From Caldisericia bacterium (GTDB lineage: Bacteria > Caldisericota > Caldisericia > JAAYUI01), in NCBI GenBank assembly GCA_017992555.1, contig JAGOOK010000010.1, forward strand, positions 1-45,502: 45,502 nucleotides of DNA, in the 5' to 3' direction. Positions 4,139 through 43,179 of the stretch are shown here, piece after piece. Numbering within the stretch: the stretch's first letter is position 1; every line of letters starts with the position of its first letter. The notes beneath the pieces are model-generated. The model ran no database searches. It saw only the letters and a program-made list of their open reading frames with translations, and was not told the DNA's origin. Position numbers and translations under genes: made by a program.

Positions 4139-7100
4139 TCAATTCTGATACAGCTTTGCAAATTCCGTGAGATCATTTATATCGATGACGTCATCGAAGT
4201 TTAGATCGCATCTCCAGAAGAAGCCATCATCACCTCTCCTCAGGCCGAGTTTACCAAGGATTATTGCAGCATCTTTTTCGTTGACCACACCATCCCTGTT
4301 GAAATCAGCAACAGAATACGCCGTCTTATAGATGGAAATTTCACCTTTTCTATAGAAGGCCTTGGTGCTCTTTTCGCTGGTTGGATCTGATGGATCTTCA
4401 AGCCTAGTTATCGAGAGGTTTTGGAAATTGACATCAAAATAGTTTGCTTCCTCGGCAAGGAACCTGAGTTTTAGGAGGTAGCCTTCTCCGCTGACTCCAT
4501 CAAGGGCCCTCTGCATGTCAACATTCACGATATTTTTTTCTTCATCATACTCGATATTGGTCAGAAGGTTTGGCTCATCTCTTTGCATGAATTCACCAAC
4601 ATCATGACCAAGATATTTTATTATTCCTTCTGAGCCTTTCAAATTGATCTGGAATTGTAACGTTTTTACATCGACGGCGTATTTGATGTAGATTCCAACA
4701 GAGAATTCATCACCAACACCCGGTTCAATTGGTAAGGCATAGGCAAATATCGTGGGTAGTGGCGGCACAGTGCTTTTTGAAACGACAAAAGATTCATTCA
4801 GGAGGTTAAAATCCTCTGCTGTTGTTGTAAGCCCCTTTGACGGAACATACTTTTCTCCTGAAGCCGATACCTGTATAAACCACTCGCCTTCAGGAAGGAC
4901 ATAATTTCCTGCGCTATCTTTGCCATCCCAAACAAAGCTATGATTACCAATTTCCACATTTGAAGCCTCGTGGATCTTCACCCATCTTTCAGAGTTCAGA
5001 TCAATGGCCCAGAAAATTAGCTCATCCTGAAAATTAAGATGAGTATCTATGCCATATCCGCTCAAAATTCGAGTAGTTCCATTTGTTAAAGTGTAATCGA
5101 CTTTAATCTCATCCTGCTCGCCATCACCATTTGGAGTAAATTCAGGAGGATTGATCTCTATTGCTCCAGCATGAGTATTATTTCTTGGGTTCTGGTTGTT
5201 ATAAATACACCAACCAACATGCCACTTCTTGCCAGTTGCTTTGTCAGTTGCCCAGATAAACACATCATTGACATTGCCCTGGATGTTTTTTGGGAGTGTG
5301 ATGTTGAATCCAACCCATGCTTCTCCAGGTTTTTTGCCAACCATCTTTGGAACAGTAAGGTTTTTTGTAGAGAATGATACATCAATTCTTTCAGGATACC
5401 TTGCATTGACTTCAAATGAGAATTCTATATTTTTGCTGTCTTTATCATTATAATTGCAAATTTTCATTCCTATCGGGTAGTCCCTGACATCGGCTGGAAG
5501 CTGGCTTCTCTTGTCAGGATTTGCCCATTCTGCTGGCCAATCTGCAACATGAATGGCATTGTTATTATTTGTATCAATAAGACCTGACGGTGGCTGGAAC
5601 ATAAGATCTGTATTTATCGCATTGTAAACATTTATTCTTCCCTGTCCCTGAACAGTCAGAGGAATATATCCCTGCCCATCGAAACGCTTGAGCGGGATTG
5701 CTGTATTCATTACGGCACGCTTTATTTCAAATGGATTCCAGTCTGGTCTTGCCTGACGTATAAGAGAGACGCAACCAGCCACAAATGGGCCAGCAGCAGA
5801 GGTTCCACCAAATGTGAACATATATGGATTCTTTGCGTCCCATGTTGGGTTTGTGGTTTCTATGCCAACTCCAGGGGCTGAAACATCTGGCTTGAGCATC
5901 ATTCTGCGGGTTGGACCAGAGGAAGTAAAATCAGCAACATTGGCTTTTATCGAAGGTTTGCCAAAACTAATGATGATTTTTTTCTGGTCAGTATCTTTCT
6001 GACCAAGTTCCCACTCGTTGTCGCGGTGGAGTTCTTTTCTGAGCGCTTCACCCTGTATTCTTGACAGATGGAAGCTGGGAATGAGATTTTTATCAAGCGG
6101 TCCACCTGGGGAATCCGCATAAAGTGCACGAATTGGTCCTGGTTCATAATTATAGAGAACCATGACTTTTGCACCAGCTTTTGATACGCTCAAGTTTTTA
6201 TCTTTGAACAAGGTTGGTGGACCAAATTTGTCTCCGTAAAGCACTGGTGAAGGACCACGCTGAATGAGAGCTGCTTTTCCAGTCAGATCAAGACCCTCAA
6301 AATCCTCTGGTCTTCCCCATCCACAATCAACAAGTTCAAGCGGTGCGCCGGTATTGCCAAACACTTTTCCAGTGTCTCCCCACTCACCAGGGAATAGCAT
6401 GCCCTGCATTTCTTGTGTTGGGGCATCTTCGATCTTCATGATAACACCATCGGTATCATCAGTTGCACCAACACCAATAACATTGTCCGGTGTGGCCGTA
6501 GAACCAGATGGGATCGGAAGTTTTGGACCAGGAGAACCTTCATTACCCTGGGAGGCAACGACAGCGCAACCTGCCAAAACGGTATTGTTCTCAAGCTCAT
6601 CCATCCATGAAGAGCCACCTGGCGCTCCATAGGAATTGTTTGATACGTGTATTTTTTCGGTGACAAGGTATTCAAATGATTTCAAAATGCCATCTGAGTT
6701 AAGACCATTGTTATCTTTTGAATCAGATATCTTGTAACCAGCAAGAAGGGCCTTTGGTGCCATTCCCTTTTCATTTCCTGGGCCATCACCTGCAATGATT
6801 CCAGAACAAGCGGTACCATGGCTTGTTCCTGGGTTTTGGGCACCACCTGGCTGAATTTCTTGGCAATCATCATCGCCATCACCAAAATCATGGCTGAAAA
6901 CTACTTTTTTGCCCTGGGGTGACTTCTGGCTCCCGAAATCCTGGTGTGTGTAATCAATTCCAGTATCAGTGACAGCACAAATGATGCCTGTCCCATCAAC
7001 TTTTCTGCCTTTTGGGTCTTTTACTTCATTCCAGACCCTTTCTGCACCAAGAAAAGTTTTTGATCTGATACGGTTCAATTTCATCTCCGGTATGAAAGTA

Positions 7101-7519
7101 ACATATTTGACACCACGAATTCTTGCGACATCAAACACCTTATTTACCGGAAGTCTCATATATACGCCATTATAAACGTACTGAAGTGGTGTCCCAACCT
7201 TGATGATGCCTTTTATGTTTGCAAGTTTCGGCATCAAAACACTCTGCTGGAACCTGATAGGAGTCATGGCAACGCTTGTCATGACGTTTCCTGGCCTCAT
7301 TATTTCACTTGATGTTGTCGGGAATGCTCCATGGTATGTGTATGTCTGTACAACAGGTTCAGCACTGAACTTAACAAGGACTTCAATGACCTTGTTCCCG
7401 TTGTTTTTCATGGAGATGATCTCTGGATCAACATTGGACATAGCAAAGGCATCACCATGCAATGGAATGACAGTGAGTGCCATGGCCAAAACAAAGATAA
7501 CCGCTAAAACTTTCTTCAT
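4139..7519 (-). CDS. Secreted S8 (subtilisin) protease with PA, cohesin and dockerin modules
   Basis: Extracellular serine endopeptidase. The start at 7519 is chosen because GGAGG (7525-7529) lies five bases upstream; an ATG six codons earlier would enclose that site. The 1126-residue protein has a signal peptide (1-26) and an inhibitor-like propeptide (about 40-150). The catalytic triad is Asp185 (VTDTGID), His234 (SHGTACSG) and Ser574 (GGTSAAGP), with oxyanion Asn326. A PA domain (about 400-500) is inserted before the Ser. Then come a linker domain, a FlgD-like Ig fold (about 790-890, starting FTPNGDGEQDE), a cohesin-like beta domain (about 920-1040) and a C-terminal dockerin pair. The dockerin loops are DFNRDGVVNEKDA and DLNFDDVIDINDL. 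A strong promoter lies upstream. Protease identity is firm; cohesin and dockerin calls rest on motif and length. Confidence 0.93.
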   Translation of the reverse strand: MKKVLAVIFVLAMALTVIPLHGDAFAMSNVDPEIISMKNNGNKVIEVLVKFSAEPVVQTYTYHGAFPTTSSEIMRPGNVMTSVAMTPIRFQQSVLMPKLANIKGIIKVGTPLQYVYNGVYMRLPVNKVFDVARIRGVKYVTFIPEMKLNRIRSKTFLGAERVWNEVKDPKGRKVDGTGIICAVTDTGIDYTHQDFGSQKSPQGKKVVFSHDFGDGDDDCQEIQPGGAQNPGTSHGTACSGIIAGDGPGNEKGMAPKALLAGYKISDSKDNNGLNSDGILKSFEYLVTEKIHVSNNSYGAPGGSSWMDELENNTVLAGCAVVASQGNEGSPGPKLPIPSGSTATPDNVIGVGATDDTDGVIMKIEDAPTQEMQGMLFPGEWGDTGKVFGNTGAPLELVDCGWGRPEDFEGLDLTGKAALIQRGPSPVLYGDKFGPPTLFKDKNLSVSKAGAKVMVLYNYEPGPIRALYADSPGGPLDKNLIPSFHLSRIQGEALRKELHRDNEWELGQKDTDQKKIIISFGKPSIKANVADFTSSGPTRRMMLKPDVSAPGVGIETTNPTWDAKNPYMFTFGGTSAAGPFVAGCVSLIRQARPDWNPFEIKRAVMNTAIPLKRFDGQGYIPLTVQGQGRINVYNAINTDLMFQPPSGLIDTNNNNAIHVADWPAEWANPDKRSQLPADVRDYPIGMKICNYNDKDSKNIEFSFEVNARYPERIDVSFSTKNLTVPKMVGKKPGEAWVGFNITLPKNIQGNVNDVFIWATDKATGKKWHVGWCIYNNQNPRNNTHAGAIEINPPEFTPNGDGEQDEIKVDYTLTNGTTRILSGYGIDTHLNFQDELIFWAIDLNSERWVKIHEASNVEIGNHSFVWDGKDSAGNYVLPEGEWFIQVSASGEKYVPSKGLTTTAEDFNLLNESFVVSKSTVPPLPTIFAYALPIEPGVGDEFSVGIYIKYAVDVKTLQFQINLKGSEGIIKYLGHDVGEFMQRDEPNLLTNIEYDEEKNIVNVDMQRALDGVSGEGYLLKLRFLAEEANYFDVNFQNLSITRLEDPSDPTSEKSTKAFYRKGEISIYKTAYSVADFNRDGVVNEKDAAIILGKLGLRRGDDGFFWRCDLNFDDVIDINDLTEFAKLYQN

Positions 7520-7564
7520 CAAAGCCTCCAACGCCATTTCAGGCTTGTATTAAGTCTTGCATAC

Positions 7565-7715: not shown

Positions 7716-9176
7716 CTAAGACAAATCCTCTTTTATGTCATCCAGGCTTTGTATGTTTTTCTGTGCGATCTTGCTGATCTTTTCATACCTCTTATTGTAA
7801 TTCTGGATCGATTCCCATATTTCGTTGGCAACAGGCTCCCAGGCTTTTGCTCTCCTGTCAAGTTCACCAGCGACTTTTTCATCCATGAGATGGATGGAGC
7901 CAGCTTCAGATGCATTAGCGGAGACCTCTTTCACAACGTCCCTCAGAGCCCACGGTCTGTCCACAATCCAGCACGGTCTCATCGGATTGGACTCATAGGC
8001 AGGATCCTGTCTTGCCCTCATCGCATTAAATAATTTTGATTCCTCCAGCACTTTCAACAATGATTTCTCTCTTATACTGTCTTCGGGTCTGTTAAAATGC
8101 ACAAAAGCGCAAGGCTCAACATGGCAATCGGCCGTTATATGTACGTATCTTCTTCCTCCGGCCAGACAGCCATCAGTGACTGGGCCATCATTCCAGAAAT
8201 CTGCGAACACGATCGGTTTCTCGTTCCTGATTTTTGTTGTCCTCTGCCACATGTATTTGCGCTGTTCGGGGCTAAGCATGATTTCAAAATTCGGGTCTCT
8301 ACCTATCGGCATATACATAAAATACCAGCCAAGCATAGCCCCCTTTTCAATCATTGCATCGACGAATTCATCAGATGTTATCTCTTTGTAGTTTTGCGAA
8401 GTTGCAGTGCAGGAGATCCCGAAGGGGTGCTTCCTCTCCCTCAAGTTGTCCATGGCCTTCATAACCTTGACAAAAGCACCTTTGCCCCTTCTTTCATCAG
8501 TTCTTTCTTCAAAACCTTCCAGCGAAAAACATGGAAGTCCGTTTCCAAGCGCAACAAATTTATCAGAAAATTCCTCATCGGCAAACAATGAACCATTTGT
8601 GTAGAAATGGAACGTCATGTCGGGGTGCCTTTCCATAATTTTGAAAAGATCTTTGTAAAGAAAAGGCTCTCCACCACTGACCGTAACAAAATAAATTCCA
8701 AGCTCTTTGGCTTCATAAAGCAGGCGATCAAAAACCTCATACGGCATGTCGCATGGGTCAAAGTTTCCGGCCCAACAACCTTTACATCTGTAGTTGCATC
8801 TCTCTGTCGGATCAATCAACAGAAAAAATGGAAGCATCATTTTGTGTTTCTTTTCCAAATCAAGCGTCTTTTTTCTGCCAACAACCATGGAATTCACAAA
8901 AAAGTTTGCAGCAGCTTTTTTGACCCAATTCTGGTCAGATTTGAGAACATTTATCAAAAGTTTCTTTTGCGGGCAATCAGGGTCTTTAAACCTGCTTATA
9001 AGTTGAAGTATGTACTCCCTGTCACAAGGTCTCCATGCGAGCTTAAATGCAATGTTGAAAAGGCTGTCAAGTTTTTTTTCAACATTGCCATTGATAACAT
9101 AACTCATTGCAACACTTACGACAGTATTTCCAGCAATTCTTTTCGCATTTTCAATGGCATTCATAATTTCTATCAT
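7716..9176 (-). CDS. Radical SAM enzyme with SPASM/twitch-like C-terminal cluster site
   Basis: Cytoplasmic radical SAM protein of unknown substrate. The 486 residues show a helical N-terminal region of about 110 residues. The 4Fe-4S motif CNYRCKGC (Cys127, Cys131, Cys134) follows, with the SAM-binding SGGEP (168-172). Four later cysteines (337, 351, 356, 402) could hold an auxiliary iron-sulfur cluster. The start overlaps the stop of the winged-helix gene (ATGA, 9173-9176). An alternative ATG lies four codons downstream. It is paired with that regulator and divergent from the FNT channel. Radical SAM identity is firm; whether it modifies a peptide, lipid or cofactor cannot be told. Confidence 0.88.
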   Translation of the reverse strand: MIEIMNAIENAKRIAGNTVVSVAMSYVINGNVEKKLDSLFNIAFKLAWRPCDREYILQLISRFKDPDCPQKKLLINVLKSDQNWVKKAAANFFVNSMVVGRKKTLDLEKKHKMMLPFFLLIDPTERCNYRCKGCWAGNFDPCDMPYEVFDRLLYEAKELGIYFVTVSGGEPFLYKDLFKIMERHPDMTFHFYTNGSLFADEEFSDKFVALGNGLPCFSLEGFEERTDERRGKGAFVKVMKAMDNLRERKHPFGISCTATSQNYKEITSDEFVDAMIEKGAMLGWYFMYMPIGRDPNFEIMLSPEQRKYMWQRTTKIRNEKPIVFADFWNDGPVTDGCLAGGRRYVHITADCHVEPCAFVHFNRPEDSIREKSLLKVLEESKLFNAMRARQDPAYESNPMRPCWIVDRPWALRDVVKEVSANASEAGSIHLMDEKVAGELDRRAKAWEPVANEIWESIQNYNKRYEKISKIAQKNIQSLDDIKEDLS

Positions 9177-16670: not shown

Positions 16671-19600
16671 ATGAGGAGAAATCTATTTATTTGGCTGACC
16701 GTTCTGGCCATGGCAAGCTCTATTTTTACTCCATTCTCTTTTAGCAACACATATTCACTTACACCAACGTTTAGCCTGGAGGTAACACCAGGCTGTGGCT
16801 ACAACGTGCTGAAATGGGAGAAAGTAACAGGAGCAACAAACTACTGGATTTACAGAGGCCCTTCCGAGGGCGCTGAATTCGACACCCCGCTGACAGATTT
16901 TCCAATCCCGGATAACACATTTAAAGACGACATCAACATCATAAATGGCACAAAATATTGTTATTTTGTCAGGGCCGTCGATGCAAATGCAAATGAGTTT
17001 GCGCAATCCAAAGAGGCTTGCGGGACACCGACTTGCGAGAACCCTCCTGAGGAAATACCACCAGAGAATGAAGATTGCAGGCTGATGCTGGAATATCAGA
17101 TTGGCAACAAGTACTACAAATCCGGTGATGTCCAGAAAGGCCCTATGGAATCAGCACCTCTTCTTACACAAAACCGCATGTTCCTGCTCATAAGGTATGT
17201 GGCCGAAGAGGTTGGTGCATCAATTGCCTATGATGCAACAACAAAGATTGTCATAATAAAGACGCTGGATGGGCAGACCCTGGAAATCCAGATCGGAAAT
17301 CCGACGGCAAAAGTAAATGGAAGCCCTGTCCAGATCGACCCAAACAACCCACAGGTGGTTGCTTTCATAGTGGGCGGTAGGACAGTCCTCCCAATGAGGT
17401 TTGTGGCCGAAAACCTCGGCGCAACAGGCCCCGAAGACATCAAATGGTTCGAGGCAACAAAAATTGTCCAGTTGCTGTTTGGCGACCCAAACTGTAGAAG
17501 GTGCATGTGCGTCACAGTATCAAAAGTTGACTGCAACGCAAAACCACCGGTCGTATACGGGAAAGACGCCAATGGCAAAGAGTGGCGGATATACCTTTCA
17601 AAAGAACTGTGTCTGAAAGTAAAAGAAGGCGGGTGCTACACATTCTGTGGTTCAATCAGGCAAGGAGCCTCAACACCAACCACAGCAACAGCACTGAACA
17701 CCTACTTCATCGCAACAGTTGTAAAACCGGCCGATTGCCCGTGCAAACAAGAGCCGTACCCGGACTACAAGTGCATGTGCGTAACGATTGAAACCCAGAA
17801 CTGTTCGGCAAACCCGCCAACAGTTTATGGTGTCGATGAAAAGAACCAGAAATGGGTCTTGCAAGTTGATGCCAGCCTCTGCCAGCAAATGACATCTGGA
17901 ACATGCTGGAAAGTTTGCGGGACTGTTGCGGTGACAACCGTAACAGCCATTGCAAACCTTCCGCCGGTAATGAAGGTCACAAGGGCAGTAAAGGTCGATT
18001 GCCCATGCGGTGGGAACCAGGCACCAAGATGCCTCTGCATGAAGATCGAAAAAGTCGACTGTGCAAGCGCGCCGCCAATGGCGTGGGGCACCGACAAAAA
18101 CGGCAAACCGTGGGTGATGGAGTTGGACGAGAAGATGTGTCTGGAGCTAAAACCAGGCTCCTGCTACATAATATGCGGGCATGTCCAGCCGCAATCCACA
18201 GCAACAACGTATGTACAGGCAAAGAGGATTAAGGTTGTAAGATTTGAAAAGATTGAATGTGAACAGTGCAAGCCAGACGAAAAATGCTTCTGCGTAAAAA
18301 TCGACCGCGTGGATTGCAATGCGGCCCAGCCAACCGTTTATGGCTATGATGAAAATGGCAAGCTTTGGGCACTCTATGTTGATTCAAAATGGTGTGCCGA
18401 CATGCAACCCGGAACTTGCTGGAGAGTGTGCGGAAATCCGCCAGAAATCATCCGTGTCGACAGCCTGCCCTGGATGAAAGTCACAAGGGCAGAAAAAATC
18501 GATTGCTCCAAATGCCCAGTCAAGGAACAAAAGGAAAATTGTATTTGCCTGACGGTAGAAAGGGTCGACTGCAATTCAGACAAACCAATGCTTTATGGCA
18601 AAGACGAGAACGGAAAATTTTTCTCGCTCCTTCTCTCAAAAGAGCTTTGCGAAAAATATTCAAACTACCTAGTCCCTGGAAAGTGCTTGAAAGTTTGCTA
18701 TATAATCACGGATTCAACGCTTGCAGTCACAATGAAGGTCACATCAATAGCGCCTGTCGAGTGCCCCTGCGAAGCGCAAAAAGAGAAATGTTTGTGCATA
18801 ACACTGGAAAGGGTCGACTGCACAAGTGAGAACCCGACGGCACTTGGGAAAGACGAGAGCGGACAAACACGGTGGTCGCTTGGCCTCTCAAAGGAACTCT
18901 GTGCCAAGTACGCCAACTATCTTGTCCCGGGCAAGTGTTTAAAGGTCTGCGGGGTGCCAAAGCCAAGCCCATTAAGTTCTGCGCTGTATATGGAAGTCAC
19001 CTCAATCACCCCGGTGGAATGCCCATGCAAGGAAGAAACAAAGCTTGACTGTTTCTGTGTGAAGATCGAAAAGAAAGACTGCGAGAATCTTTTGCTTTAC
19101 GCCACAATCGATGGCAAGACCCTAATACTTTCGGTATCAGCCGAACTGTGCAAGATGGCAGAGCCCGGAACATGCTGGTGGGTCTGCGGAAGAAAGGTAG
19201 AGGTTGCTGGTGCTGTTCCATATTTCAAGGTTGAAAAATACGAAAAGAGAGACTGCCCCTGCGGGACAGAACAGCCAAAAGAAGAGTGCTTCTGCGTGAC
19301 GATTGACCGTTTTGCATGTGACCAGGACCCACCAATGATCTGGGGCAAGGACAAAAAAGGGAACCAGGTCGTGCTTGTAGTCAGCAAGGAGATATGCCTG
19401 AAGTATGCGGAGGCGCTTGGCCCTGGAAAGTGCGTCGAGATTTGCGCAATTAAAACAACGCTTGCAAGCGGACTTGTTGTGTGGAAGGTAACAAAAATAA
19501 GCCAGACGAACTGCCCATGCGAAGAAAAACCGCCAGAAGAAATTTGCAGATGCGTCACGATCAAAAAAGTAGACTGCACAGCAAAACCACCAATGGTTTG

Positions 19601-22064
19601 GGGTGTCGATGAAAACGGCAACGAGATCACCCTAGCTCTTGAGAGCTGGATGTGCGACAGGTATGCAAACTATCTGGTCCCAGAAAAATGCATCAAGGTG
19701 TGTGGCGTCTGGTCAAAGATTGCAATAAGCGACACGGTGTCTATTGAGGTGCTCAAACTGACAAAAATCGTCCCTGTTGAATGTCCATGCAAGCAGGGGC
19801 CAAAACCAGACTGCTTCTGTATACAAGTTGAGAAAAAAGATTGCGAACGCGGAATTTTGTACGCAAAGATTGGAGAAAAAACCATCATGCTGATGGTCCC
19901 TCCAGAGCTTTGCAAAATGGCAGAGCCAGGAACATGCTGGTGGGTCTGTGGCGAGTGGTCAGAGCAGGTTAGTGCAGCACCTTATTTTAAGGTCACAAAA
20001 TTTGAAAAGAGGGACTGCCCGTGCGAAAAACCGCCTGAGGAGATTTGCCACTGCGTAACATTAAGAAAAGTAGATTGCAATTCAGACCCGCCAATTGCGA
20101 TGGGTGTGGACGAGAACGGGAACGAAATAAACATCCTGCTGACAAAAGAGCTGTGCGAGAAGTTTGGCGACAAACTCTCCCCTGGCAAGTGCTTCAAGGT
20201 CTGCGGGAAAATGGTCAAGGTCGCCCTGGCACCCAATGTCGATGCGCTGGCATTGAAGCTGACCTACATAAACCAGGTCGACTGCCCGTGTGTCCAGCTC
20301 CCCAAGGAAGAATGTTTTTGCGTGACGATCGAGAAGATTTCATGTGAAAGCGACCCGCCAATGATCTGGGGCAAAGACAAGGCCGGTAATGCCATTGTGC
20401 TCGTGCTTTCAAAAGAGCTTTGTGACAAATACGCCAACTATCTCGTCTCAGGCAAATGCATTGAAGTCTGTGGAACCAAAACAACACTGGCAGATGGGCA
20501 AATTGCGTGGAAGCTTTCTTTAATCAAGATGGTTGATTGCCCTTGTGGAGAAAAACCACCGGAAGAAATATGCCATTGCGTAACGATCAAAAAGGTCGAC
20601 TGCACGGCAAAACCACCCATGGTTTGGGGTGTCGATGAGAATGGCAATGAGATAACCCTCGTGCTTGAGAGCTGGATGTGCGACAGGTACGCAAACTACC
20701 TGGTTCCAGAAAAATGCATCAAGGTGTGTGGCATCTGGTCAAAGATTGCCATAAGCGACACGGTGTCCATCAAAGTGCTGAAACTGACAAAAATCTACCC
20801 AGTCGATTGCCCATGCAAAGAACAAGAACCTGACTGTTTCTGCATGGAGGTACTCAGAAGGGACTGCGAGAAAGGCATACTGTATGTAAAGATCGGCGAG
20901 AAGACGGTCATGATGACCGTTCCTGCCGACTTGTGCAAGATGGCAGAAGTGGGCACTTGCTGGTGGGTCTGCGGCGAGTGGGTTGAGAACCCCGGCGCAG
21001 CACCATCATTCAAGCTTTTGAAAATCGAAAAGAGGGACTGCCCATGCGAGAAGCCGCCTGAGGAGATTTGCCATTGTGTGACAATAAGGAAGGTAGACTG
21101 CACAAGGGAACCACCGCTTGTCTGGGGCGTGGACGAGAACGGGAATGAGATAGTATTGGTTCTTTCAAAGGAATTGTGCCAGAAATGGGCCAATTACATC
21201 GTCCCCGGAAGGTGCGTCAAGGTCTGTGGCCAGATGGTAAAGTATCCGATTGATGCCTCAACCACAGGGCTTGGGCTGAAAATCACCAAACTAGAACCAA
21301 CCGAGTGTCCATGCCAGGAAACCCAAAAAGAAGAATGTATCTGCCTTGAGATAACAGACAGCAGCTGTGGAGAAGGGAAATACGTTGCATACGGCAAGCA
21401 ATCAAACGGAAGGACATGGATGCTGGAGCTTGGGCCGGACATATGCAAACTGTTTGTAAAGGGTACATGCTGGAAGGTCTGTGGCATTGTGACCGCCCCA
21501 ACTACCAGGGGTGGGCCAGCAAAGATGAAGGTCACAAAATATGAAAAAGTGGATTGCCCCTGTGATTCCGGGCAAACCGAATGCTATTGCTTGACTGTCC
21601 TGAAAGCTGACTGCAACGCAAACCCGCCGGTTTTATACACCAAGGACGCAAAAGGCAGGGAAATAAAAGTCATCCTGACCAGCGACATGCTCAGGATATG
21701 CTACCTTGCAAAACCTGGGACATGCTGGAAAGTTTGCGGAAAACTGACCCGCCTTGACTCGGGGGAATATGTCATCTACGCATCGACAATAACTGCTATC
21801 GATTGTCCGTGCGCAGGTTCCCAGGACTGCAAGTGGATAAGAGGCATCGTCAGTTACGTCAGATATGCCAACAACAAATGGCAGATTGGCTTCAAGCGCT
21901 GTGACGGGACCGAGACAGTGTATGTTGCAAATGAAGACCTTATAGACATAACAAGGAAGTATAAGCTCTCGCAATACAAGGGATGCGCAGAGCTGTGCAT
22001 CAATGACAACAATGAGATAGTAGGCTGGAAGGCACTCCCGGACCAGGATTGCTGCCCAAAATAA
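16671..22064 (+). CDS. Giant secreted protein with 17 eight-cysteine repeats
   Basis: Secreted protein of 1797 residues, no recognised overall family. Order: signal peptide (1-25), fibronectin-III-like domain (about 38-122), copper-amine-oxidase-type stalk domain (about 136-275). Seventeen tandem repeats of about 78-90 residues follow (278-1719), then a divergent C-terminal module (1720-1797). A typical repeat reads CxCVxI-xKVDC, PPxVWGxDENGNE, LSKELC, PGKCxKVCG and ends DCPC, giving eight cysteines. Even cysteine number and export suggest disulfide-locked beta modules, or metal binding. Copies 7, 10 and 14 are a shorter variant lacking the PPxxxG segment. Repeats 8-11 and 12-15 are a duplicated block of 1026 bases. 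A clear promoter, AAAGGAG site and terminator show a single-gene unit. A sheath, fibre or adhesin role is inference. Confidence 0.85.
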   Translation: MRRNLFIWLTVLAMASSIFTPFSFSNTYSLTPTFSLEVTPGCGYNVLKWEKVTGATNYWIYRGPSEGAEFDTPLTDFPIPDNTFKDDINIINGTKYCYFVRAVDANANEFAQSKEACGTPTCENPPEEIPPENEDCRLMLEYQIGNKYYKSGDVQKGPMESAPLLTQNRMFLLIRYVAEEVGASIAYDATTKIVIIKTLDGQTLEIQIGNPTAKVNGSPVQIDPNNPQVVAFIVGGRTVLPMRFVAENLGATGPEDIKWFEATKIVQLLFGDPNCRRCMCVTVSKVDCNAKPPVVYGKDANGKEWRIYLSKELCLKVKEGGCYTFCGSIRQGASTPTTATALNTYFIATVVKPADCPCKQEPYPDYKCMCVTIETQNCSANPPTVYGVDEKNQKWVLQVDASLCQQMTSGTCWKVCGTVAVTTVTAIANLPPVMKVTRAVKVDCPCGGNQAPRCLCMKIEKVDCASAPPMAWGTDKNGKPWVMELDEKMCLELKPGSCYIICGHVQPQSTATTYVQAKRIKVVRFEKIECEQCKPDEKCFCVKIDRVDCNAAQPTVYGYDENGKLWALYVDSKWCADMQPGTCWRVCGNPPEIIRVDSLPWMKVTRAEKIDCSKCPVKEQKENCICLTVERVDCNSDKPMLYGKDENGKFFSLLLSKELCEKYSNYLVPGKCLKVCYIITDSTLAVTMKVTSIAPVECPCEAQKEKCLCITLERVDCTSENPTALGKDESGQTRWSLGLSKELCAKYANYLVPGKCLKVCGVPKPSPLSSALYMEVTSITPVECPCKEETKLDCFCVKIEKKDCENLLLYATIDGKTLILSVSAELCKMAEPGTCWWVCGRKVEVAGAVPYFKVEKYEKRDCPCGTEQPKEECFCVTIDRFACDQDPPMIWGKDKKGNQVVLVVSKEICLKYAEALGPGKCVEICAIKTTLASGLVVWKVTKISQTNCPCEEKPPEEICRCVTIKKVDCTAKPPMVWGVDENGNEITLALESWMCDRYANYLVPEKCIKVCGVWSKIAISDTVSIEVLKLTKIVPVECPCKQGPKPDCFCIQVEKKDCERGILYAKIGEKTIMLMVPPELCKMAEPGTCWWVCGEWSEQVSAAPYFKVTKFEKRDCPCEKPPEEICHCVTLRKVDCNSDPPIAMGVDENGNEINILLTKELCEKFGDKLSPGKCFKVCGKMVKVALAPNVDALALKLTYINQVDCPCVQLPKEECFCVTIEKISCESDPPMIWGKDKAGNAIVLVLSKELCDKYANYLVSGKCIEVCGTKTTLADGQIAWKLSLIKMVDCPCGEKPPEEICHCVTIKKVDCTAKPPMVWGVDENGNEITLVLESWMCDRYANYLVPEKCIKVCGIWSKIAISDTVSIKVLKLTKIYPVDCPCKEQEPDCFCMEVLRRDCEKGILYVKIGEKTVMMTVPADLCKMAEVGTCWWVCGEWVENPGAAPSFKLLKIEKRDCPCEKPPEEICHCVTIRKVDCTREPPLVWGVDENGNEIVLVLSKELCQKWANYIVPGRCVKVCGQMVKYPIDASTTGLGLKITKLEPTECPCQETQKEECICLEITDSSCGEGKYVAYGKQSNGRTWMLELGPDICKLFVKGTCWKVCGIVTAPTTRGGPAKMKVTKYEKVDCPCDSGQTECYCLTVLKADCNANPPVLYTKDAKGREIKVILTSDMLRICYLAKPGTCWKVCGKLTRLDSGEYVIYASTITAIDCPCAGSQDCKWIRGIVSYVRYANNKWQIGFKRCDGTETVYVANEDLIDITRKYKLSQYKGCAELCINDNNEIVGWKALPDQDCCPK
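17502..21827 (+). repeat. Seventeen tandem ~255-bp coding repeats
   Basis: Each unit starts at a Cys-x-Cys codon pair and ends after an Asp-Cys-Pro-Cys motif. Unit length is about 234-270 bases. The unit spacing stays in frame throughout, and most copies have diverged at third codon positions, so the array is old and under protein-level selection. Confidence 0.85.
19287..21335 (+). repeat. Duplicated four-repeat block, period 1026 bp
   Basis: Block one (19287-20312, repeats 8-11) and block two (20313-21335, repeats 12-15) align in order. Equivalent points are exactly 1026 bases apart, for example 19551 and 20577, and the final repeat of block two is one codon shorter. Repeats 9 and 13 are nearly identical in protein and close in DNA. 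Confidence 0.85.
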
Positions 22065-23510: not shown

Positions 23511-23612
23511 GTTTTTACAGGTCGATAATTGCACAAATAAATGGCTTAAAAATCGTATCTGTCATTTGAATTTACAAAAATAAAAAAAATAATACAATTT
23601 CTACGCATGTGC

Positions 23613-24686
23613 TTATGAGTAGCAATCTCGTGCAATCAGTTCTTTGTTGCGTAATGGCAATATTGGACATATTTGGCAAATTGCAAATCTATATCCACAT
23701 TTCTTACATACCTCAGGCAAGCACCCAGAGAATTTCTCCCATCTTTCCATAAAATCTAAAAAAATACCCGACGAGAGGACTTCATCGAAGGTGCCACATT
23801 TTTTGATATCAGGCAAATCATTCTTTTTATATAAGATATTTGCCTGGTATAAGCATGGCACTATCTTTCCAGAAGAGGTTATTATTATCACTTTTGTAAT
23901 TGCATCACAGGTTGTTTCAAATTGCGCACTCATAACACCGCACTTGGATTTACCTATTGAATGTTCAATAATTTTAGGTTTAAAATTTACCCTAATATTG
24001 GTATATTTTGATGCCTCATGTATGGCATCAATTAGCTTGGGCATTAATTCTATCATATTCTTATCATCAATCACCATATCCTTATTGACAGAAGCTCTGC
24101 CCTCTGGAACCATTGCATTAAGATACATAAAATCTGGAGAAATCTTTTTAACAAAATCTCCAAGCTTATCTATTTTATCAGACCACAAAGAATTTATGGT
24201 CATATCAATTACTATCTTGGGATAATTAATATTTTTTTCACTTCTGATAAGTTTAATTGTTTTAATCGTTGTAGAAGTTCTTTCGAATGTACCCGAACCC
24301 CTTATGAAATCGTTGGAATAAGTATCTATTCCATCATAAGAAAAACTTATCGAATTAGTTTCAACTCTACATAGCTCTCTAGAGTATCTATTATCAATCA
24401 ATTGAGAATTTGTATTGAAACTAGTTTTGATACCATTTTTTTTAGCAAAATAGATTATATCTATAAAATCAGGCCTTGTTGTAGGTTCACCTCCAAGAAA
24501 ATGAACATGATTTATGCCCCATTTTGAAAGTTTAGAGATACCAGATAAAATATCATTTGTCTTAAGCGTGCCATCACACGGTGGTGATGGCACGCTTTCA
24601 TCTAATTCACATACTTGACAATGTTTACATGCCAAATTGCACTGATCTGTTATATACCAACGTACAGTTGGTGATATGCTGATCAT
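23613..24686 (-). CDS. Radical SAM/SPASM peptide-maturase-like enzyme
   Basis: The 357-residue protein has the cluster motif CNLACKHC (Cys16, Cys20, Cys23) and the SAM motif LGGEP (64-68). Its C-terminal part is rich in cysteine (249, 260, 278, 297, 322, 327, 330, 337, 340, 355), a SPASM domain that should hold auxiliary 4Fe-4S clusters. SPASM radical SAM enzymes commonly modify ribosomally made peptides or proteins. It begins six bases after the stop of a 99-residue peptide gene that has a strong ribosome site, the usual precursor-maturase order. Codon use is visibly more AT-rich than in flanking genes, suggesting horizontal transfer. No transporter or protease lies beside it. Enzyme class is firm, substrate inferred. 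Confidence 0.88.
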   Translation of the reverse strand: MISISPTVRWYITDQCNLACKHCQVCELDESVPSPPCDGTLKTNDILSGISKLSKWGINHVHFLGGEPTTRPDFIDIIYFAKKNGIKTSFNTNSQLIDNRYSRELCRVETNSISFSYDGIDTYSNDFIRGSGTFERTSTTIKTIKLIRSEKNINYPKIVIDMTINSLWSDKIDKLGDFVKKISPDFMYLNAMVPEGRASVNKDMVIDDKNMIELMPKLIDAIHEASKYTNIRVNFKPKIIEHSIGKSKCGVMSAQFETTCDAITKVIIITSSGKIVPCLYQANILYKKNDLPDIKKCGTFDEVLSSGIFLDFMERWEKFSGCLPEVCKKCGYRFAICQICPILPLRNKELIARDCYS

Positions 24687-24692
24687 TAACTT

Positions 24693-24992
24693 TTACAATT
24701 CTCCTGGCGTTTCAAATGCTGATCTTAAAAAACAGCAAATTATGCCACTATTTACGTCTCCTTCCATTAATTCATCAATTGTTACTTTGATCGCCCTTGT
24801 AGTTGCATGCAAGGACACCGCAGATAGAGCTTTTGCATAATCGTTAAGGACCTTGTTTTCTTCATCAGTTAACGTCAAACCAGCCTCTTTGAGCAAAATG
24901 GGCAACTTTTTGTAACGATTCATTTTATCCTCTTCATTATATTTTTCCACCAGCGATTGAAATTTCTTTACATCAAGCTTTCTTTCAGGCAT
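24693..24992 (-). CDS. 99-residue peptide, candidate radical SAM substrate
   Basis: Small protein of no recognised family. The start at 24992 is fixed by GGAGGG five bases upstream; an ATG five codons earlier would overlap that site. The first 75 or so residues are charged and predicted helical (RKLDVKKFQ, LLKEAGLTLTDEENKVLNDY). The last 20 change character and contain the only two cysteines, adjacent, in SGIICCFLRSAF, ending TPGEL. A leader-plus-core layout directly before a SPASM enzyme suits a RiPP precursor, although the leader is long. An alternative is a small regulator or carrier protein. There is no paralogue in the window. Confidence 0.65.
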   Translation of the reverse strand: MPERKLDVKKFQSLVEKYNEEDKMNRYKKLPILLKEAGLTLTDEENKVLNDYAKALSAVSLHATTRAIKVTIDELMEGDVNSGIICCFLRSAFETPGEL

Positions 24993-25347
24993 TTGAACCC
25001 TCCTCATTTATTTGAATATAGATTTAATACAAACTTACTATTAATCAATAATCCATATTTTAAATGTATATATTATTAATTTATTGCTAAATATATTTAT
25101 AATTATTTTATATAAATTATAAACCAAATTATCAAATATTGAAGAAAAACCGATTATCAAAAAAATTTTGAAAAATAATATTGATAATTTTTACATTTTT
25201 ATGTGTTATATCTTTAATAAACATAAAAAATATAATTATACCAAGTTAATTCACTTTCCCGCTAATTTTTAGCGGCTAATTCTATAAAATTTAAAGCGAC
25301 ATTAAATAAACAGATATATTTAGCAAGAGCGGCGTTCCTTAAAAAAC
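24993..25347. other. Very AT-rich intergenic region with half-site repeats
   Basis: There are no genes between the peptide gene and the TetR promoter. It contains the GGAGGG ribosome site of the peptide gene. The octamer ATTATCAA occurs at 25128-25135 and 25153-25160, exactly 25 bases apart, and its complement lies at 25181-25188. A 7-bp stem-loop CCGCTAA-TTT-TTAGCGG (25259-25275) lacks a T-run. Several TATAAT-like boxes exist but none can be chosen because of base composition. Confidence 0.55.
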
Positions 25348-26871: not shown

Positions 26872-26887
26872 GGAAACGTCTTAATAA

Positions 26888-26970
26888 CCATCGGGGTGCT
26901 GTGAAGGCTGAGATGGGCGAAAAGCCCGACCCGCAAGACCTGATCTGGGTAATACCAGCGCAGGGAATGG
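26888..26970 (+). promoter_or_regulatory. TPP riboswitch (THI element)
   Basis: The conserved thi-box elements occur in order: CCATCGGGGTGC, GGCTGAGATGGG, a short P3 hairpin GGGC-GAAA-GCCC, GACCCGCAAGACCTGATCTG, GGTAATACCAGCG and CAGGGAATGG. P1 closes between CCAT (26888-26891) and ATGG (26967-26970). It senses thiamine pyrophosphate and precedes thiT, as in other bacteria. Confidence 0.95.
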
Positions 26971-26980
26971 GACCTTCCTC

Positions 26981-27003
26981 CCTCCTGATAATTTAAAAGG
27001 AGG
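26981..27003 (+). promoter_or_regulatory. Shine-Dalgarno sequestering hairpin, riboswitch expression platform
   Basis: CCTCCT (26981-26986) can pair with AGGAGG (26998-27003), the ribosome site of thiT, across an 11-base loop. There is no T-run, so control is probably translational. The alternative partner that frees the site is not obvious. Confidence 0.65.
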
Positions 27004-27010
27004 CTTTTGC

Positions 27011-27970
27011 ATGCTTAGTGATTCTGGTGCTGTGGCCCAAACGGGCCTCTTAGAGAAAATTGCCAGCTATTTCAACTCCTTCAACTTCCTTATCACTCTG
27101 GCAATTCTGGCGTTTTTTGTATTCCTCATTATTGCATCACGGAAATACAAATGGGACGTTTATATAATTGCGACAATAGGGATTTGTTTAATTTTATTAC
27201 TATTGTTCATCTACTTCAAATCATTCCACATTCTTGTCACTCTGGTAACCCTGGTATTTCTTGCCTTCCTTATTATTGTATCGCGATTATATAAGTGGGA
27301 TGTCCGAACAATAGCAATAGTCGGGATTTGCTCTGGACTTTCGGTAGCGCTTGGATACTTTCCATTCTTCAGGATGCCAGAAGGCGGAACAATCTCGCTG
27401 GCAATGGTGCCAGTGGTTGTTGTGGCATTAACAAAAGGTGTTGTGCCCGGAGTTATCGCAGGTGTCATTGCTGGTTGTCTCCAGTATTTCCCAGACCCAT
27501 TTTTCTACAACCTGCCCCAGTTCCTTCTTGATTACCCGATAGCATGGGGACTCGTGGGTCTGGCTGGCCTCTGGAAAATTGACAACGGCAAAAAAACGCT
27601 CCTGTGGGTAATAGGCGGACTGGGGCTGCTGGTTTGTGGCGGGTTCATACTAGACATGGTGCTTGAGGGCGGGTATTCCTGGGACAAATTTGTCGCGTTG
27701 GCAATAATGCTTGGGTTGCTCGTTCCTGGGTTCCTGACCGCAAAGAGGGGTGGAGCATGGTCGCCAGCTGGCGGTGTTGCGATTGGTGCATTTGCGCGTT
27801 TTCTTGCCCACCTGCTGTCCGGAATGCTTTTCTTCTACACATTCGCATGGCCAGGATACAGCATACTGGGCTACACCTCGATTTACATAGCCATACACCT
27901 TGTTCCCGAGACCATCTTGTGTATGGTTGCAGCTGTACCAATAAACAAATATGTGATAGAGAGGTCATAA
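27011..27970 (+). CDS. thiT: Thiamine transporter ThiT (ECF S component) with duplicated N-terminus
   Basis: Membrane substrate-binding subunit of an ECF-type thiamine importer; it needs a shared energising module not found in this window. Identification rests on the TPP riboswitch plus ThiT signatures: FRMPEGGTISLAMVPV (120-135) and LPQFLLDYPIAWGLVGLAG (168-186). The 319 residues exceed the usual 180-200 because about 95 residues are added in front. That extension contains a 48-codon tandem duplication: membrane segments around FLITLAILAFF and ILVTLVTLVFL, each followed by a (K/L)YKWDV motif and IGIC/VGIC. GGAGG lies seven bases before the ATG. yigZ follows after nine bases. Confidence 0.9.
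   Translation: MLSDSGAVAQTGLLEKIASYFNSFNFLITLAILAFFVFLIIASRKYKWDVYIIATIGICLILLLLFIYFKSFHILVTLVTLVFLAFLIIVSRLYKWDVRTIAIVGICSGLSVALGYFPFFRMPEGGTISLAMVPVVVVALTKGVVPGVIAGVIAGCLQYFPDPFFYNLPQFLLDYPIAWGLVGLAGLWKIDNGKKTLLWVIGGLGLLVCGGFILDMVLEGGYSWDKFVALAIMLGLLVPGFLTAKRGGAWSPAGGVAIGAFARFLAHLLSGMLFFYTFAWPGYSILGYTSIYIAIHLVPETILCMVAAVPINKYVIERS
27071..27331 (+). repeat. In-frame 144-bp tandem duplication within thiT
   Basis: Unit 27071-27187 and unit 27215-27331 align without gaps at a spacing of exactly 144 bases, sharing TCACTCTGG near the start and GGGATTTG at the end. The intervening 27 bases complete the period. Confidence 0.8.
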
Positions 27971-40181: not shown

Positions 40182-40210
40182 TTGAATTGTCAGATAAAGT
40201 GTTATATGAT
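40182..40210 (+). promoter_or_regulatory. Promoter placed for leaderless transcription of the second S8 protease
   Basis: TTGAAT (40182-40187), 17-base spacer, TATGAT (40205-40210). The ATG is at 40219, eight bases beyond; no ribosome site precedes it. Confidence 0.72.
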
Positions 40211-40218
40211 TGCTTATC

Positions 40219-43179
40219 ATGAGGAGAATAGTGCCCGTCGTATGTACTATTTTAATAGCTGCGATTCTTTTTTCGCTGAATTTTTCAGCCCCTTTCCCAA
40301 CGCAAGCCAGACAGAATTTGGTCACCTGCATTGTCGAGCTCACCGACTATACGGGGCGGGGTGAAACAAGCTCAATATTGACTGCCAGCCAGCACAAAGG
40401 GTTCCTTGAGGCACTAAAAGATGATTTTCCAACGGCATCGGTCAATTTTGAGTATTCGATGCTCTCCTCTGGTTTTTCAATAAATGTTGCACAAGACGAG
40501 ATAAATGACCTGGCATCACTCCCCGATGTGGAACACATCTATTTCACAAAATTTTATTATCCAGTACTTTTTGAGTCTGTAGAAAGTACCAGGGCAAAGG
40601 AAGCCTGGGATTTGAAAGATGGCCATGGACAACCGCTAACCGGCAAGGATGTGCTTGTTGGCATTGTCGATTCCGGCATAAGCTACGACCATCCATCACT
40701 CTCAGGGGGGTTCAATCCTGACTCAAAAGTCTGCGTTGGCTACGACTTTGCAAACATGGATGACGACCCGATGCCAGAGCCAGGACATGTTGGTTGGCAT
40801 GGAACACACTGCGCAGGAATTGTTGCTGGTACCGGACTCCCCGGAGTTCCCGGTTCAGACCCAGCTCCAAGCGGAATAGCACCCGATGCCAAGCTTGGTG
40901 CCTACAAAGTCTTTGGCAAAAGTGGCGGGGCAAGAAACGACAGGGTAATGGCCGCGATAGAGAGAGCCTACAAGGACGGATGCAAAGTAATATCCCTGAG
41001 CCTTGGAAGCAACTACGTCTGGGCAGACGAGCCAGTTTGCAAGCTGATAGACAGGGTGGTCGAAAATGGCGTTGTCGTAGTAGCTGCGGCTGGAAACGAT
41101 GGCGACCTGTCAAGGGATGAACTCCCATACAAAGTAATCTCGCCTGGTGGGGCAAAAAATGCAATATGCGTCGGGGCCGTTGATGATTCACAGTACCCGC
41201 ACCTGGTGGCCGGCAATGTTGATTGCCTGCCAGAATACCTGACCTATTCGAAACCCATAGAAGATCCCATAACAGGCCCACTGGTTTTTTGTGGCCTTGG
41301 AAAAGCTGATGACGTAAAAAACCTTGATCTCACAGGCAAAATTGCCCTCATCAAAAGGGGCGACAACACATTTTTTGACAAAGCAAACAATGCGCAATTA
41401 AAAGGAGCATTGGCATGCGTTATTTTCAACAATGAGGAGGGGGACGTACAGGGAACGCTTGGCTCTTCAGATATCACGATCCCTGTTGTCGGCGTGTCGA
41501 GTGAAACAGGCGACAAGTTGAACGGATTTGCCTCTACCGGTAACAACGCGACCCTGGACGTCAAGAGCAAGCTTGGCCTGATGGCTGATTTTTCCTCCCA
41601 GGGCCCGACAAACGATTTCAGGCTAAAACCGGATGTTTCTGCACCCGGTGTCAACGTCCTCTCGGCTGTCGGCAGCAACAGCTATGTAAAAATGTCTGGA
41701 ACAAGCATGGCCACTCCAATGGTTTCTGGCGCATGCGCCATACTCATCCAGGCCCATCCTGAATGGACACCGTTTGATGTGAGGTCAGCAATAATAAACT
41801 ACGCTGTTCCACAAAAAGACAAAGAAGGGAATTCGCACCCGGTCCTCTCGCAGGGCACCGGAAGGATCGACATTGTTTCATCTATAGGCGCCAAGGCGCT
41901 CTTCCGCCCGACATCAGTTGACCTTGGATATATAAAATCCGACTCCGCCGCATCGGTAACGATCAGAAACATCACAAAAACCCAGCTCAAGGTAACAGTG
42001 ACCAACGAGCCAGAAGGCGGGCAACCCGCAAAAATCGGCGAAATCACGCTCAAAGCGTCAGAATCCAGACTTTTCACCACCAATATCACGCCAGACACCT
42101 CAACGGCTGGTGCACACGCGGGTTATCTTGTTTTTGACTATGGCGACTCAAAGGCCAGGGTGGCCTACCTCTACTTCACGGGAGATAAACCCAATCCCCC
42201 AACAGTTTCCGCTGTAGAAATGCCTTTGCCGGCCTTCTCGCCCAATGGTGACAGAAGGGGCGATTATCTGAGTGCAACAGTGTCCTTGAACAAAATGGTG
42301 GACGGTTTTGAGCTGGATTTGACCGATACAAACAACAAAATCTTGACCATACTTGATTATTCATACGGGACCCAGGGTGGTGGAATGTGGGACCTCGGCT
42401 GGGACGGCAGCATAGAAGGAATGAAGATCCAAGACGGAGTTTACAGGATACACCTCTACACCCTAGCAACCGGAAGAGACCCAAAGGAACAGGCAAACTG
42501 GGAACACTTTGGGCCAATCGAATTCATGGCCACAACAAAAGCTCCATTGATTCAACTGAATGCAACAAACGGGAAATTCTACAACCTCGATGGGCCTGTG
42601 ACCCTTTCTGGCTCAATCAAGGACCCGCTCTTTGATTTCCAGGGACTTGGTGAAAAGGCCTTTGAAATGGTCGTTCTAAACTCTGAAAAACCATTGGAAA
42701 TTAAAGAGGACGGCAGCTTTAGCTTTCAGACTGCGCTCAAGAAAGGCGACAACTCTATTTCAATAACTGTCCTGAATATAGCAGGTTTGAAAACAATCCT
42801 TACAATTAACCTCCAGTCTCTCAGAAAAGCAGAAATTTCCTGGGACAACACTGGCATCACCTTGAACGGCAAAAAAATTGCCGACATTTTATTCAAGATT
42901 ATCGACAATGAGATAATGATTGATGCTTCAAAACTTGGCCTTCTTGTCGATGGAATAGTATTTGACAAAAAAGGGCAGAACCTGACTTTCACGCTCGACA
43001 AGAAAGCTGTCCTGATGATGATTGGGCAACCATTCATTATAGTGGATGGCAAAGTGTTATTCTGCAATCCGCCTGAAGCAAAAGACAATGTGGTAATGAT
43101 TCCTCTTGGAGCATTGGTAACCGCTTTCGGCGGAGACGTTGGAGATTCGAAAGCAACAATCGTCTGGAGGGGTGATTGA
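40219..43179 (+). CDS. Secreted S8 (subtilisin) protease with PA insert and C-terminal stalk-like domain
   Basis: Extracellular serine endopeptidase of 986 residues. The start at 40219 is set by the promoter; a TTG at 40210 is inside the -10 box. A signal peptide (1-30) is followed by an inhibitor-like propeptide (about 35-115). Catalytic residues are Asp151 (GIVDSGISYD), His194 (GWHGTHCAG), oxyanion Asn293 and Ser496 (SGTSMATP). A PA domain sits at about 335-450. Beyond the catalytic domain lie an Fn3-like domain, a FlgD-like domain (FSPNGDRRGDYL, about 675) and a Glucodextranase-B-like segment. The C-terminus (about 865-986) is a diverged copper-amine-oxidase-type stalk domain (IVDGKVLFCNPPEA, MIPLGALVTAFGG). 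It lacks the dockerin of the first protease. The next gene overlaps by four bases. Confidence 0.93.
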   Translation: MRRIVPVVCTILIAAILFSLNFSAPFPTQARQNLVTCIVELTDYTGRGETSSILTASQHKGFLEALKDDFPTASVNFEYSMLSSGFSINVAQDEINDLASLPDVEHIYFTKFYYPVLFESVESTRAKEAWDLKDGHGQPLTGKDVLVGIVDSGISYDHPSLSGGFNPDSKVCVGYDFANMDDDPMPEPGHVGWHGTHCAGIVAGTGLPGVPGSDPAPSGIAPDAKLGAYKVFGKSGGARNDRVMAAIERAYKDGCKVISLSLGSNYVWADEPVCKLIDRVVENGVVVVAAAGNDGDLSRDELPYKVISPGGAKNAICVGAVDDSQYPHLVAGNVDCLPEYLTYSKPIEDPITGPLVFCGLGKADDVKNLDLTGKIALIKRGDNTFFDKANNAQLKGALACVIFNNEEGDVQGTLGSSDITIPVVGVSSETGDKLNGFASTGNNATLDVKSKLGLMADFSSQGPTNDFRLKPDVSAPGVNVLSAVGSNSYVKMSGTSMATPMVSGACAILIQAHPEWTPFDVRSAIINYAVPQKDKEGNSHPVLSQGTGRIDIVSSIGAKALFRPTSVDLGYIKSDSAASVTIRNITKTQLKVTVTNEPEGGQPAKIGEITLKASESRLFTTNITPDTSTAGAHAGYLVFDYGDSKARVAYLYFTGDKPNPPTVSAVEMPLPAFSPNGDRRGDYLSATVSLNKMVDGFELDLTDTNNKILTILDYSYGTQGGGMWDLGWDGSIEGMKIQDGVYRIHLYTLATGRDPKEQANWEHFGPIEFMATTKAPLIQLNATNGKFYNLDGPVTLSGSIKDPLFDFQGLGEKAFEMVVLNSEKPLEIKEDGSFSFQTALKKGDNSISITVLNIAGLKTILTINLQSLRKAEISWDNTGITLNGKKIADILFKIIDNEIMIDASKLGLLVDGIVFDKKGQNLTFTLDKKAVLMMIGQPFIIVDGKVLFCNPPEAKDNVVMIPLGALVTAFGGDVGDSKATIVWRGD

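Follow-up and report, generated by a model that had tools for sequence, protein, structure and literature searches.

A radical SAM/SPASM enzyme and an adjoining 99-residue peptide as a candidate RiPP-type pair in Caldisericota

Does a small peptide gene that is followed almost at once by a gene for a radical SAM/SPASM enzyme encode a RiPP precursor and its maturase, or is the association of another kind? The question is raised by a locus in an incomplete Caldisericia MAG (G000; 1.5 Mb, 70% complete), for which the original prediction had suggested a possible new RiPP-type pair, with a peptide divided into leader and core. We analyzed this locus within its 45,502-nt contig (the window, meaning the whole stretch of DNA analyzed), and compared it with related genomes and with known systems.

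The peptide gene and the adjoining enzyme

The features of the pair are as follows.
24998–25003, minus strand: Shine-Dalgarno sequence GGAGGG, 5 nt 5' of the peptide ATG, read directly
24693–24992, minus strand: candidate RiPP precursor of 99 aa (MPERKLDVKK...SGIICCFLRSAFETPGEL), an ORF with a strong ribosome-binding site and solely synonymous differences from a sister species
24744–24785, minus strand: residues 70–83, VTIDELMEGDVNSG, loosely resembling a degenerate double-glycine leader end (post-hoc pattern)
24696–24743, minus strand: residues 84–99, IICCFLRSAFETPGEL, the presumed core, delimited from the sequence
23613–24686, minus strand: radical SAM/SPASM enzyme of 357 aa, without an N-terminal RRE-sized extension (PF04055, E 6.1e-18; best NCBIfam scores far below cutoffs)
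24618–24641, minus strand: CX3CX2C motif (Cys16, Cys20 and Cys23), read from the sequence and invariant in alignment A2
23622–23909, minus strand: SPASM region, C260-X12-GX4-C278, CX2CX6CX2CP (Cys327, 330, 337 and 340) and Cys355 (alignments A2 and A3)

The 99-residue gene and its strong ribosome site were located on the minus strand as had been proposed, with the coordinates and the GGAGGG sequence both verified. An alternative in-frame ATG lies at 25007, and the spacing from the ribosome-binding site suits the ATG at 24992. When the 645-nt stretch was modelled as a first-order Markov chain, an ATG-initiated ORF of at least 99 aa was encountered in 0.1% of trials, and the five nucleotide differences from the sister species G001 are all synonymous and all in third positions (5/5; p about 0.002); the gene was therefore taken as protein-coding, and it is under purifying selection. 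Two alleles are known (G000 and G001), with the same protein sequence in both. The tail had been quoted correctly, and its pair Cys86-Cys87 (codons at 24732–24737), two residues adjacent to each other, accounts for all the Cys of the peptide; in a post-hoc test, 0.4% of peptide shuffles carried 'CC' within the last 20 residues. Single-sequence structure prediction (pLDDT 56) gave a helical body and last 40 residues that are not helical.

A 6-nt gap separates the peptide stop codon, ending at 24693, from the enzyme ATG at 24686, the two genes being on the same strand, and the C-terminal half of the enzyme carries ten Cys (249, 260, 278, 297, 322, 327, 330, 337, 340 and 355), seven of which form the SPASM set; on both points the first reading of the sequence was accurate. 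The protein belongs to the Radical SAM superfamily (PF04055, 66 bits versus a cutoff of 29.5, with CX3CX2C present). The Pfam SPASM model scored 15.7 bits, below its cutoff of 21.5, yet the seven-Cys pattern is complete: when compared to the published pattern CX9-15GX4C-Xn-CX2CX5CX3C-Xn-C (PMC5715301), the Gly and the full set of seven Cys are in place and are kept in relatives, with the third block, CX2CX6CX2C, being a spacing variant, and this places the enzyme in the SPASM subfamily. Its single-sequence structure prediction reached a pLDDT of 33, and neither this model nor that of the peptide was of a quality suited to fold comparison.

The best NCBIfam scores were 96 bits for NirJ2, 93 for the tungsten-cofactor maturase (W_rSAM) and 84 for AhbD, versus equivalog cutoffs of 500, 380 and 500 bits, respectively, and no NCBIfam cutoff was passed. 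The prokaryotic viperin model gave 66.6 bits versus a cutoff of 180, with the match confined to the radical SAM core. No RRE was matched in the enzyme by Pfam or NCBIfam models, the CX3CX2C motif beginning already at residue 16, and no gene for PqqD was noticed next to the pair; an RRE within or near a RiPP maturase is frequent, not universal.

Distribution and exchange of the pair

Two of the four genomes of the genus carry the pair, and in both the genes are adjacent. In the sister species G001 (contig JAGOOO010000010.1, MAG Go_SlDig_bin_82, where we read 'SlDig' as sludge digester), it occupies the same site, with a peptide 100% identical and an enzyme 96% identical to those of the window; the C-terminal end of the enzyme differs slightly. 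A precursor-like gene that adjoins a putative maturase gene and is inherited with it is thus observed, over a scope of two near-identical loci. In the other two genomes (G002 and G003), an unrelated gene of ~430 aa replaces the block between the same flanking genes. This site occupant (2129–3421 of L026 in G002 and 1610–2893 of L027 in G003) matches nothing in Pfam or NCBIfam, and a 27% relative of it is present elsewhere in G001.

A pattern scan of one genome per species, over 84,980 species, returned only G001, by a method limited to close relatives. When 386 whole genomes (54 in the phylum, the others domain-wide) were searched, no enzyme match exceeded about 30% identity and no credible relative of the peptide came up; the peptide also matched none of the plasmids, phages and viral contigs, and in 291 genomes of another phylum nothing was found at E 1e-30, a weak negative. 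Three weak peptide matches in distant genomes (E 0.003–0.009) were set aside as chance, lying inside unrelated long genes, namely SecA in G229 (G082 aligns likewise) and an aminotransferase-like protein in G170. No occurrence of the cassette is known outside this species and a single sister species. Peptide homologues occurring apart from the enzyme, which had been named as evidence against a functional pair, were absent from the collections searched, and the two genes are adjacent in each genome that carries either. Of the proposal that the pair is new, absence from these collections holds, while newness is not based on chemistry.

The pair lies within a block whose composition and divergence set it apart from its surroundings.
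23521–25330, no strand assigned: AT-rich block of ~1.8 kb carrying the pair (blastn junctions, GC and dS)

The GC content of the pair genes is 33–37%, versus 45–50% for their neighbours, and falls to 13% in the upstream region. When comparing G000 and G001, dS is 0.08 for both pair genes, the lowest of 26 genes, the other 24 ranging from 0.18 to 0.52; the synonymous divergence of the block is roughly fourfold below that of its surroundings. The low dS and the foreign GC content therefore indicate that the block was probably acquired by, or exchanged between, the two species after their split, with strong constraint on synonymous sites being a less likely cause of the low dS.

The block contains neither transporter nor protease, in agreement with what had been noted. 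Two subtilase genes of the window (4139–7537 and 40210–43179) are far from the pair, on vertically inherited DNA. Elsewhere in the window are a 1797-aa protein (16671–22064) with many Cys-rich repeats (CFCVxIxxxDC...GTCWxVCG...DCPC), which is OB-fold-scored and has one Cu_amine_oxidN1 domain; a second radical SAM enzyme (7716–9176; 486 aa), adjoining an S8 protease gene and under every NCBIfam cutoff shown; and an ordinary TPP riboswitch (26882–26983; 71.7 bits), preceding a gene at 27011 that resembles thiamine transporters.

Enzyme relatives and the proposed leader and core

The nearest full-length relatives of the enzyme are of the same class (G020, E 2e-33, and G008, E 5e-33, at 25–28% identity; G019, E 7e-32, at 31%), and FastTree grouped it with these three with supports of 0.66 and 0.60 only. 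In G020 and G008, the gene for a Cys-rich protein with CxD/CxN repeats starts at most 15 bases from the end of the enzyme gene or overlaps it. A signature of CX2CX6CX2CP followed by LR, in some cases LRN, is common to the window enzyme, those of G020 and G008 and a truncated enzyme of G003, and this spacing is absent from the MftC, nif11, GDL and own-genus SPASM enzymes compared. The C-terminal extension of the G008 enzyme resembles Frankia_peptide, of the RiPP-leader clan (E 4e-4, below cutoff), and that of the truncated G003 enzyme NH_RiPP_Os17 (E 1e-5, below cutoff); the Cys-rich protein of G008 has a weakly NHLP-like N-terminus (E 0.07). The adjoining Cys-rich proteins and the shared, unusual SPASM signature favour a role as a peptide maturase for the window enzyme as well.

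The three loci with such extensions (2816–5757 of L051 in G020, 940–3176 of L052 in G008 and 2386–4557 of L049 in G003) each encode a SPASM enzyme with a C-terminal leader-clan-like domain, followed directly by a Cys-rich repeat protein of 269–540 aa made of CxD/CxN units, and likely represent a multi-core RiPP family of their own. In G003 (contig C175), the enzyme N-terminus is cut short and the adjoining sequence, at about 4560–5398, is CRISPR-array-like (GTPPRVWG / HPHVCGE translations), so that this contig is perhaps chimeric or interrupted. In G019 (1471–4007 of L009), the SPASM enzyme gene is followed immediately by an MFS-transporter-like gene, an order also seen on an Agathobacter plasmid (L067). 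A locus of an unrelated phylum, represented by one genome (G131; 1–4777 of L050), encodes two SPASM enzymes accompanied by small PqqD-like ORFs, a Cys/Gly repeat protein of 236 aa and a P-loop protein of 341 aa, and is likely another radical SAM RiPP locus.

The division of the peptide into leader plus core, as originally proposed, was not established. HMMER with Pfam and NCBIfam models found no NHLP, Nif11, Frankia or other leader family in it, and when the peptide was compared with the leader-like segments of the relatives, using a small four-sequence profile, 205 of 2000 shuffles reached its score (p about 0.1). The segment YKKLPILLKEAGLTLTDEENKVL, picked out by eye as an NHLP-type leader, was dropped on this shuffle test. 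Residues 70–83 were compared with a double-glycine leader logo (PMC2887384); a pattern of this type occurred in 0.26% of shuffles, being post hoc and loosened to fit, and it is suggestive only of a degenerate leader end that would leave residues 84–99 as the core. The tail does differ from ranthipeptide, SCIFF and sactipeptide cores, as had been stated, having no CX3D/E repeats, no six-Cys pattern and no sactipeptide family match.

Readings of the pair and comparison with known systems

With a probability of roughly 0.58, we read the pair as a minimal RiPP-type cassette in which the peptide is a precursor with a CC core and the enzyme a thioether-forming maturase; we infer the peptide to be the substrate, the modification to fall on the CC tail and the bond to be of this type. 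The reading gains support because the genes lie 6 nt apart on the same strand in an operon-like arrangement, recur as the same pair in G001 and are found nowhere apart, because the peptide is under purifying selection, the block behaves as a unit and the seven SPASM Cys are present, and because the nearest relatives within the class adjoin Cys-rich precursor-like proteins and bear leader-clan-like extensions. It is weakened because the enzyme has no RRE-sized extension, no PqqD was seen and the peptide matches no leader family, because the relatives are only 25–31% identical and group with the window enzyme at supports of 0.66 and 0.60, because the top NCBIfam models for the window enzyme are those of heme and tungsten-cofactor enzymes, and because a single peptide sequence is available and the block has no transporter or peptidase. 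Peptide plus radical SAM pathways of two or three genes are common (PMC9062424).

If so, the charged and, by prediction, mostly helical N-terminal part of the precursor would serve in recognition, and the core would be a short C-terminal stretch around Cys86-Cys87. The SPASM enzyme would reduce SAM, and the 5'-deoxyadenosyl radical would take a hydrogen from a core residue, as in other peptide-modifying SPASM enzymes (PMC8326336). One or two thioether bonds would most likely be formed from the peptide Cys, held near the auxiliary Fe-S cluster, each with a loss of 2 Da (PMC9413430); for sacti- and ranthi-enzymes, the substrate Cys is proposed to bind the auxiliary cluster and to end as a thioether (PMC8326336). 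Leader removal and export, if any, would have to depend on host enzymes encoded elsewhere, or neither may occur.

The small helical protein could instead serve the enzyme as PqqD or MftB would, whether as partner, as chaperone or as a subunit for recognition, the true substrate being another protein or peptide of the cell. Such a role would suit an enzyme without an RRE and a peptide that no leader family matches, with a body predicted as helical at moderate confidence and 40 final residues outside the predicted helices. We consider it unlikely: a recognition subunit would not be expected to have its sole Cys side by side in the tail, a low-confidence model predicts helices alone where PqqD and RREs have a winged helix, and the block offers no other candidate precursor. 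Somewhat less likely again is an enzyme acting, as NirJ2, AhbD and the tungsten-cofactor maturase do, in the synthesis or modification of a cofactor or other small molecule, next to a peptide that is a structural or regulatory neighbour. These three models gave the best NCBIfam scores, and the three enzymes have no RRE either; the scores nevertheless fall far under the curated 380–500 bits and arise mostly over the radical SAM core that these enzymes have in common, the pair adjoins no gene for heme, tungsten or any other cofactor, relatives beside Cys-rich precursor-like proteins score equally or better on the same models, and the pair moves as a two-gene unit.

The foreign composition, the recent exchange, the lack of a transporter or protease and the slightly different enzyme C-terminal ends could also point to what is left of a larger mobile cassette, decayed or selfish and functionless in its host. 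This is the least probable of the alternatives, given that neither reading frame is disrupted in either species, that the peptide changes are all synonymous and that the catalytic and SPASM Cys are all kept. A further proposal goes beyond the favoured RiPP-type reading, namely a new RiPP class in which an RRE-less SPASM enzyme would crosslink a vicinal Cys-Cys close to the C-terminal end of a long, helical precursor, encoded by an exporterless, exchangeable cassette and giving an intracellular product. We hold this to be doubtful; the present evidence falls short of a new class, and an orphan RiPP-type pair within a known kind is most likely. If right, it would add from Caldisericota an orphan precursor and an unclassified maturase in a small cassette, and a vicinal-Cys core beside an RRE-less SPASM enzyme would be unusual. 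A full-text search of an open-access library listed no paper on RiPPs that names this phylum.

Comparison with known systems places the pair as follows. Like the ranthipeptides (PapA/PapB of freyrasin, SCIFF/CteB), it combines a SPASM radical SAM enzyme with a Cys-bearing peptide and possibly Cys thioether chemistry; in contrast to them, the peptide has neither CX3D/E repeats nor six Cys in 45 residues, and the enzyme has no RRE and scores under the PapB and CcpM model cutoffs. With the sactipeptides (SkfA/SkfB, StsB), it shares a radical SAM enzyme with an auxiliary cluster domain and a small peptide with a hydrophobic, Cys-bearing C-terminus, whereas SkfB has an N-terminal RRE, the peptide matches no sactipeptide family and the enzyme scores 69 bits versus the 625-bit cutoff of the StsB model. 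NHLP/Nif11 precursors with radical SAM maturases (e.g. nif11 maturase 3) likewise have a long charged N-terminal part and a short core, with the precursor upstream in a Nostoc example as in the window, but the window peptide matches none of the NHLP, Nif11 and Frankia_peptide HMMs and has no clear Gly-Gly site. The NirJ2, AhbD and tungsten-cofactor SPASM enzymes resemble the window enzyme in being RRE-less, in their length and in giving its best raw HMM scores, and differ in equivalog cutoffs that it falls far under and in pathway genes that are absent nearby.

The other Caldisericota SPASM loci differ in that their enzymes carry a C-terminal leader-clan-like domain, which the window enzyme does not, and in that the putative precursors of the G020/G008 type have 269–540 aa and dozens of Cys and lie downstream, whereas the window peptide has 99 aa and two Cys and lies upstream. 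The likeness is in the enzymes, which are 25–28% identical over their full length (G020, G008) and have CX2CX6CX2CP then LR(N), and in the adjacent peptide gene. These related loci, in which the enzyme bears a fused leader-clan-like domain and the precursor-like proteins are very rich in Cys, offer a stronger lead on this theme.
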